From: Sphingomicrobium clamense
GTDB taxonomy: Bacteria > Pseudomonadota > Alphaproteobacteria > Sphingomonadales > Sphingomonadaceae
NCBI RefSeq assembly: GCF_019264355.1
Contig: NZ_JAHVAH010000001.1
Location: 1,596,001-1,660,000, forward strand
Direction: 5' to 3'
DNA: 64,000 bases
Under the pieces are notes generated by a model. The model was not told where the DNA came from. It did no database searches and worked only from the letters and a program-made list of their open reading frames with translations. Positions 41,300-41,441 of this stretch are shown here, piece after piece (the stretch's first letter is position 1; each line of letters starts with the position of its first letter). Both the position numbers and the translations under genes were made by a program.

Positions 41300-41441
41300 G
41301 AGTCCTCGCCGAGTCGCCGTCAAGATTCTCAACGAATCCAGAGGGTTGGAATTGACGTCTCGAAACCGACTCAAAACACAACATGTTGAGTCCGGCAAAT
41401 CTCTCAAGACTCAATATCTGGTGGTGTGACTCGAAAGACTC
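41300..41441. promoter_or_regulatory. Array of nine GANTC methylation sites upstream of ccrM
   Basis: GANTC occurs at 41300, 41311, 41324, 41334, 41368, 41388, 41408, 41428 and 41437 (first base of each). Chance expectation is about one per 256 bp. Spacings cluster near one or two helical turns; four sites are exactly 20 bp apart. The array fills the 171-bp gap between rnhB and ccrM, so it probably governs ccrM by methylation state. Confidence 0.8.

Follow-up and report, generated by a model that had tools for sequence, protein, structure and literature searches.

The window, the whole stretch of DNA that was analysed, comprises 64,000 nucleotides of the genome of Sphingomicrobium clamense (G000:C1:1596001-1660000; host genome of 2.2 Mb), and our subject is the leader of ccrM, the gene for a GANTC adenine methyltransferase, where an array of nine GANTC sites lies in the gap between rnhB and ccrM. 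Two 16-bp boxes matching the NrdR boxes of the same lineage stand before ccrM, and judging from the sequence the gene is probably an NrdR target with two inputs, the state of the deoxynucleoside triphosphates (dNTPs) and methylation by CcrM. The distal half of the array looks like an NrdR-like docking site and the proximal half like a conserved core promoter; at the level of sequence, these modules, their conservation, the box pair and its overlap with GANTC are established. NrdR is a zinc-ribbon repressor that senses adenosine triphosphate (ATP) and its deoxy form (dATP), how CcrM is timed is a central question about the cell cycle of alphaproteobacteria, and to our knowledge the inputs to ccrM outside Caulobacter have been little studied.

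The probable NrdR-box pair

Read toward ccrM, the distal conserved block has the form GAGTC-yTTy-GnGTCACACCAC-nAGnnn-TTGAGTC-N15-GACTCAA-cATc-TTGTG, and its two arms are NrdR-box-like. The scoring matrix was derived from nrdA alone, with 28 box pairs of the same genus and no ccrM input: nrdA leaders were taken from 30 of the 56 matching genus genomes, 29 of these 30 show a box pair near -225 to -260 with a spacer of 15-17 bp, and one leader that was cut short and one near-duplicate were dropped. A ccrM match was present in 60 of 61 genus genomes and in 149 of 149 family genomes. The genus set holds 56 leaders after removal of G051, G006 and G001 as duplicates of named loci (the 59 genus leaders scored against the control windows include them), G016 (ccrM unmatched) and G005 (contig edge) giving no leader; the family set of 55 is the subset placed at that stage, which contains 28 of the 60 fetched leaders, all of which are in the set of 146. 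With this matrix, 58 of 59 genus ccrM leaders outscored all 417 control windows (control maximum 14.1 bits), and 43 of 55 family ccrM leaders outscored the highest of 374 control windows. At a cut-off of 15 bits the pair was found in all 56 genus leaders and in 119 of the 146 family leaders outside the genus, and in none of the reversed-sequence controls (0/59, 0/60 and 0/146).

The geometry of the pair also suits an NrdR operator. The spacer is 17 bp in the window (41392-41408) and in 55 of the 56 genus ccrM pairs, the remaining one having 16 bp, and the window's value falls inside the range of 14-17 bp that NrdR tolerates (PMC12051234). GC pairs in the boxes are required by NrdR (PMC9110341), and C4 and G13 are present in both boxes of the window, the mapping of the required pairs to positions 4 and 13 being our own. 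Searched for with at most one mismatch, the box-2 16-mer has 63 occurrences in the 61 genomes, of which 58 adjoin ccrM (in 55 genomes); all 48 exact copies adjoin ccrM, and the five places elsewhere carry one mismatch. Furthermore, rnhB reads into the box block in several lineages with differing peptides, and at L072, L115 and L157, where rnhB ends 530-924 bp away, the block remains with ccrM, which together argue that the constraint is on the DNA and belongs to ccrM.

Conservation of the nine sites

The leader alignment comprises 60 ccrM leaders, including the window's own and those of four named loci (L001, L004, L005 and L006), with L068 dropped. From ccrM outward, the GANTC columns are kept in 60 (-36), 53 (-47), 8 (-60), 4 (-70), 7 (-104), 55 (-124), 54 (-144), 28 (-164) and 59 (-173) of the 60, so that five of the nine window sites are widely kept (53-60), one is half kept (28) and three are poorly kept (4-8). 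The N letter divides the conserved sites into two kinds: at -36 (C, T or A) and -47 (G, C, A or T) it varies while GANTC itself is retained, a sign that methylation as such is selected for, and at -124 (C, 55/55), -144 (G, 54/54) and -173 (G) it does not vary, a sign that the GANTC belongs to a larger protein site. Upstream of box 1, in the window (41425-41441) and its relatives, a conserved block GAGTC-N9-CACACC may be the site of another protein or may extend the operator. Over the 210 bp of the genus leaders (n=56), GANTC occurs 6.57 times on average (range 3-10). The excess of GANTC anticipated by the initial annotation for orthologous gaps is thus present, and a constant array is not, given these counts and the five conserved sites of nine.

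Table 1. Features of the ccrM leader and its neighbouring genes in the window
Feature	Position	Strand	Details
ccrM, GANTC adenine methyltransferase, 387 aa	40105..41268	minus	N6_N4_Mtase and RAMA domains above cut-off
Core module: TTGACG (-35-like) 41318-41323, GANTC 41311-41315, GANTC 41300-41304	41300..41323	minus	conserved columns
Three weakly kept GANTC	41324-41328, 41334-41338, 41368-41372	minus	kept in 8, 4 and 7 of 60
NrdR box 2 (predicted), ACTCAACATGTTGTGT	41376..41391	minus	matrix 20.4 bits; GANTC 41388-41392 in inner half
NrdR box 1 (predicted), CCACCAGATATTGAGT	41409..41424	minus	matrix 17.6 bits; GANTC 41408-41412 in inner half
Second outer GANTC	41428..41432	minus	kept in 28/60
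Outer GAGTC at fixed distance upstream of box 1	41437..41441	minus	kept in 59/60, N always G
rnhB, ribonuclease HII, upstream neighbour	41440..42012	minus	same strand as ccrM

Overlap of GANTC with the boxes

Both boxes carry a GANTC in the inner half in 48 of the 56 genus ccrM leaders and in 77 of 119 family leaders, and at least one box of the pair has an inner-half GANTC in 109 of those 119; the outer half of a box holds one in 0/56 genus leaders and in 3/48 fetched family leaders. With GANTC so placed, the adenine that CcrM methylates is the neighbour of the G read by NrdR. When the nrdA box pairs of the genus were checked for the same overlap, none of 28 had it. It is possible, although we incline against it, that NrdR and CcrM contend for the same operator adenines before ccrM, which would make the leader a natural epigenetic-metabolic switch. 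We regard it as rather unlikely that NrdR controls ccrM while the overlap is meaningless for NrdR and methylation works at the core promoter only: the change to GANTC may cost NrdR little, several second boxes of nrdA in the genus reading CTCAA as well without being GANTC, and the box alone can explain the conservation of sites where N is fixed, but this account does not sit well with the difference between the nrdA and the ccrM pairs, nor with the family count of at least one overlap in 109 of 119.

In the nrdA leader of the window's own genome (L258), the first NrdR box (-229) is closely preceded by GANTC sites at -256 and -243; many other nrdA leaders of the genus lack GANTC there.

The predicted core promoter module

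In the window, the two core GANTC sites lie 11 bp apart. The core pattern was defined as TTGAC, 1-5 bases, GANTC, 4-7 bases and a second GANTC, and it was found in 52 of 56 genus leaders against 0/481 control windows, and in 43 of 55 family leaders against 0/461, the whole family sample being lower (95/146). It extends to 15 of 28 class loci, these being the best 28 of 97 matching genomes (0/424 controls), and to 16 of 61 other named loci (0/1194). The 11-bp distance between the GANTC sites is shared by 51 of 52 genus, 24 of 43 family, 8 of 15 class and 13 of 16 other core matches. As judged from these letters, the leader has what characterizes a core promoter controlled by CcrM methylation, a GANTC with free N at a fixed promoter position. 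The -10 element of the window's ccrM leader is weak by eye.

The extended GcrA motif YGAKTCK (PMC7987155) fits four of the nine array sites, and GcrA is encoded in the window's genome; GcrA may act at some of the array sites.

The predicted operator and the presence of nrdR

The window's genome carries nrdR (172.4 bits against a cut-off of 124.65), and its NrdR has the CPFC and DSR motifs. In the family, nrdR was detected in 140 of 149 genomes, which leaves nine without it. The four nrdR-negative genomes at 99% completeness (G066, G159, G079 and G164, from two genera) are all without the operator and have kept the core, with 2-4 GANTC. Among genomes at least 99% complete, a cut chosen after the rows had been seen and excluding 24 of 146 family genomes, the operator is lacking in 4/4 nrdR-negative against 20/118 nrdR-positive genomes (Fisher 0.0012); over all family genomes the figures are 4/9 and 23/137 (Fisher P 0.061).

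Several observations weigh against the control of ccrM by NrdR. The other five nrdR-negative assemblies (66-96% complete) retain the operator, where an incomplete assembly may account for the missing nrdR; 23 nrdR-positive family genomes fall below the pair threshold. The comparison of nrdR loss rests on two genera only, that is, on few events, and the leaders share ancestry, so that row counts are not independent events. The consensus letters used to place the nrdA boxes are those that we take to be the NrdR consensus, and the median of 30.6 bits for the nrdA leaders, with which the median of 32.1 bits for the genus ccrM leaders compares, is a training score. Of the 350-bp stretches that precede the fetched family leaders, 1/60 passes the 15-bit cut-off, and among the 11 sphingomonad pairs listed, 9 have a box 1 that scores below box 2. 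Finally, the predicted -35 of ccrM is about 53-101 bp downstream of the boxes; the NrdR boxes of ribonucleotide reductase genes lie upstream of the start site and overlap it (PMC9110341). Because the ccrM boxes sit upstream of the predicted core and not over it, the mode of repression is hard to see.

Some of these points would also suit a palindromic element bound by another regulator whose site resembles NrdR boxes, as would the frequent degeneracy of box 1 and the conservation of the outer GAGTC-N9-CACACC outside any NrdR box. We nevertheless consider such a regulator improbable, given a spacer of NrdR length between two boxes, scores equal to those of nrdA promoters, and the absence of the element from the four nrdR-less genomes at 99% completeness.

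The GANTC array in the window and the genome

The array is real, and a recount in the sequence gave nine GANTC in 142 bp (41300-41441), with starts at 41300, 41311, 41324, 41334, 41368, 41388, 41408, 41428 and 41437 and spacings of 11, 13, 10, 34, 20, 20, 20 and 9 bp, exactly as initially annotated. The initial annotation put the chance expectation at about 0.6 sites; the excess holds, and the expected count is lower still, about 0.2 at the window's own GANTC rate (Poisson P about 2e-12). Across the window GANTC is scarce (96 found against 358.9 expected from dinucleotide shuffles, about 3.7-fold under-represented), which makes the excess in the array larger than had been assumed. Array excluded, the densest 142-bp stretch of the window has four GANTC, from 35367; these four occupy 65 bp (35367-35431) in the gap downstream of a minus-strand pntA-like gene, which by eye from its sequence we take to encode NAD(P) transhydrogenase subunit alpha.

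Close GANTC pairs number 109 genome-wide, as opposed to 34 when the pattern is reversed, and the array is not unique: a second cluster, with nine GANTC within 128 bp, occupies C1:274463-274590 in the interval from maf to hemE, beside an AT-rich stretch. We take maf-hemE to be the gene neighbourhood of the replication origin (oriC) in Caulobacter, and the cluster is probably an oriC that carries a dense CcrM array, to be likened to the GATC array of E. coli oriC. If so, ccrM sits at 76% of the distance from this origin to the point facing it, which would mean late hemimethylation. Another dense cluster in the same genome, at C1:977617-977794, has eight sites in 178 bp.

The array had also been read as a dense, phased device that counts methylation or gathers GcrA cooperatively, with many sites on the same face of the helix. 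The nine sites, the encoded GcrA, the four matches to YGAKTCK and the second nine-site cluster at the probable oriC are what such a reading has in its favor. However, the phasing is not significant (Rayleigh R 0.62, equalled by 6.4% of random nine-site arrays of the same span, 0.064), the site count ranges from 3 to 10 over the 56 leaders, four of the nine sites are not kept genus-wide (five of nine being conserved), and the conserved central GANTC sit within larger conserved 16-mer boxes. We therefore did not retain the counting device or the cooperative GcrA platform and consider this reading very improbable.

Neighbouring genes

The ATG of ccrM is at 41266-41268 on the minus strand. The closest named relative of the gene is 86% identical, and its score with the NCBIfam CcrM model is 634 bits, below the cut-off of 830, for which reason the name ccrM rests on homology. 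The stop codon of rnhB (41440-41442, minus strand) is overlapped by the outermost GANTC of the array. A scan of 41100-41600 against Rfam at gathering thresholds matched no family, and a structured leader RNA for ccrM was set aside on that ground. The CtrA-like half site GTTAAC is present in 32 of the 60 aligned ccrM leaders; it was not found in the rnhB-ccrM gap of the window.

NrdR-like boxes beyond sphingomonads

A single box at 13/16 or better was found at 11 of 60 non-sphingomonad named ccrM loci against 0/1070 control windows, and at 3 of the 28 class loci (the best 28 of 97) against 2/392. With the nrdA matrix, 8 of the 60 named loci and 5 of the 28 class loci exceed the control maximum. 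We do not claim class-wide control of ccrM by NrdR on this ground, since in the leaders inspected the box is mostly inside the 3' end of rnhB, where the peptide P[IV][HR][NK][IM]L yields box-like DNA. Outside Sphingomonadales, L019, L026, L046, L247 and L248 have NrdR-like boxes (13-15/16) before ccrM; several of these are within the 3' end of rnhB, and that of L247 is intergenic.

Proposed control of ccrM

Returning to control by NrdR and methylation, we infer from the sequence that NrdR binds the pair and represses ccrM; the timing, the -10 and start of the promoter and any effect of methylation on NrdR are inferred in the same way. When dATP is high, as DNA synthesis slows, NrdR would bind the ccrM box pair and lower ccrM along with ribonucleotide reductase; the use of dATP in S phase would free NrdR, and ccrM would be released together with ribonucleotide reductase. 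The proximal part would be a weak sigma70-type promoter (TTGAC), with the two GANTC 11 bp apart placed around its -35/-10 spacer, and GcrA-sigma70 or the methylation state might act at the core GANTC as in Caulobacter. Hemi- or full methylation by CcrM at both modules could then tune the output of ccrM further, and at the boxes NrdR and CcrM probably exclude each other.

If this is true, a cell-cycle methyltransferase would be tied to the same dNTP signal as ribonucleotide reductase in the 119 of 146 sampled family genomes that carry the pair, and the CcrM sites within the NrdR boxes open a mutual coupling of methylation and nucleotide sensing to direct testing. Should the competition for adenines also hold, the methylation state of the replicated ccrM gene would both record the supply of DNA precursors and be the measure against which that supply is read.

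Comparison with known systems

The ccrM case resembles the NrdR operators of ribonucleotide reductase genes in its two 16-bp boxes, a spacer within 14-17 bp, the conserved GC pairs and the presence of NrdR in the genome, and differs from them in that the target is a DNA methyltransferase gene, the boxes hold CcrM sites and the pair lies upstream of the predicted core. The ccrM leader of Caulobacter, whose promoter is under methylation feedback, likewise has GANTC in front of the gene, with two sites in the leader, whereas the window's leader has many more GANTC and an NrdR-like operator, and lacks GTTAAC in the gap. The Caulobacter gene is activated only when its DNA is hemimethylated (PMC2217572). 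Methylated promoters activated by GcrA, such as Caulobacter ctrA P1, podJ and mipZ, share with the window a GANTC near the core promoter (at -29 of ctrA P1 and -24 of podJ P2; PMC4287350) and the presence of GcrA; in contrast to these, the window has two GANTC 11 bp apart, and the extended motif fits four of its nine sites.

As regards NrdR, 186 proteobacterial NrdR regulons have been reconstructed (PMC5343134), and a Caulobacter nrdR deletion spread 10% more in soft agar, which its authors ascribed to a later swarmer-to-stalked step under elevated dNTPs (PMC12186491). In the open-licence literature, judged mainly by titles and the opening lines of abstracts, we found no paper that links NrdR with ccrM in substance; the supplementary regulon tables of PMC5343134 and RegPrecise, which lie outside that search, might list ccrM. 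The covering of GANTC by the site of a DNA-binding protein has a parallel in MucR, which shields GANTC from CcrM (PMC5172544) and belongs to a protein family other than that of NrdR. A comparable design is a synthetic epigenetic memory circuit, in which a zinc-finger repressor controls ccrM from an operator blocked by CcrM methylation (PMC5458116). If NrdR and CcrM do compete in the ccrM operator, the leader described here would be a natural version of that circuit, although the latter is an engineered positive feedback, in contrast to the natural, NrdR-like, cell-cycle setting of the sphingomonad gene.
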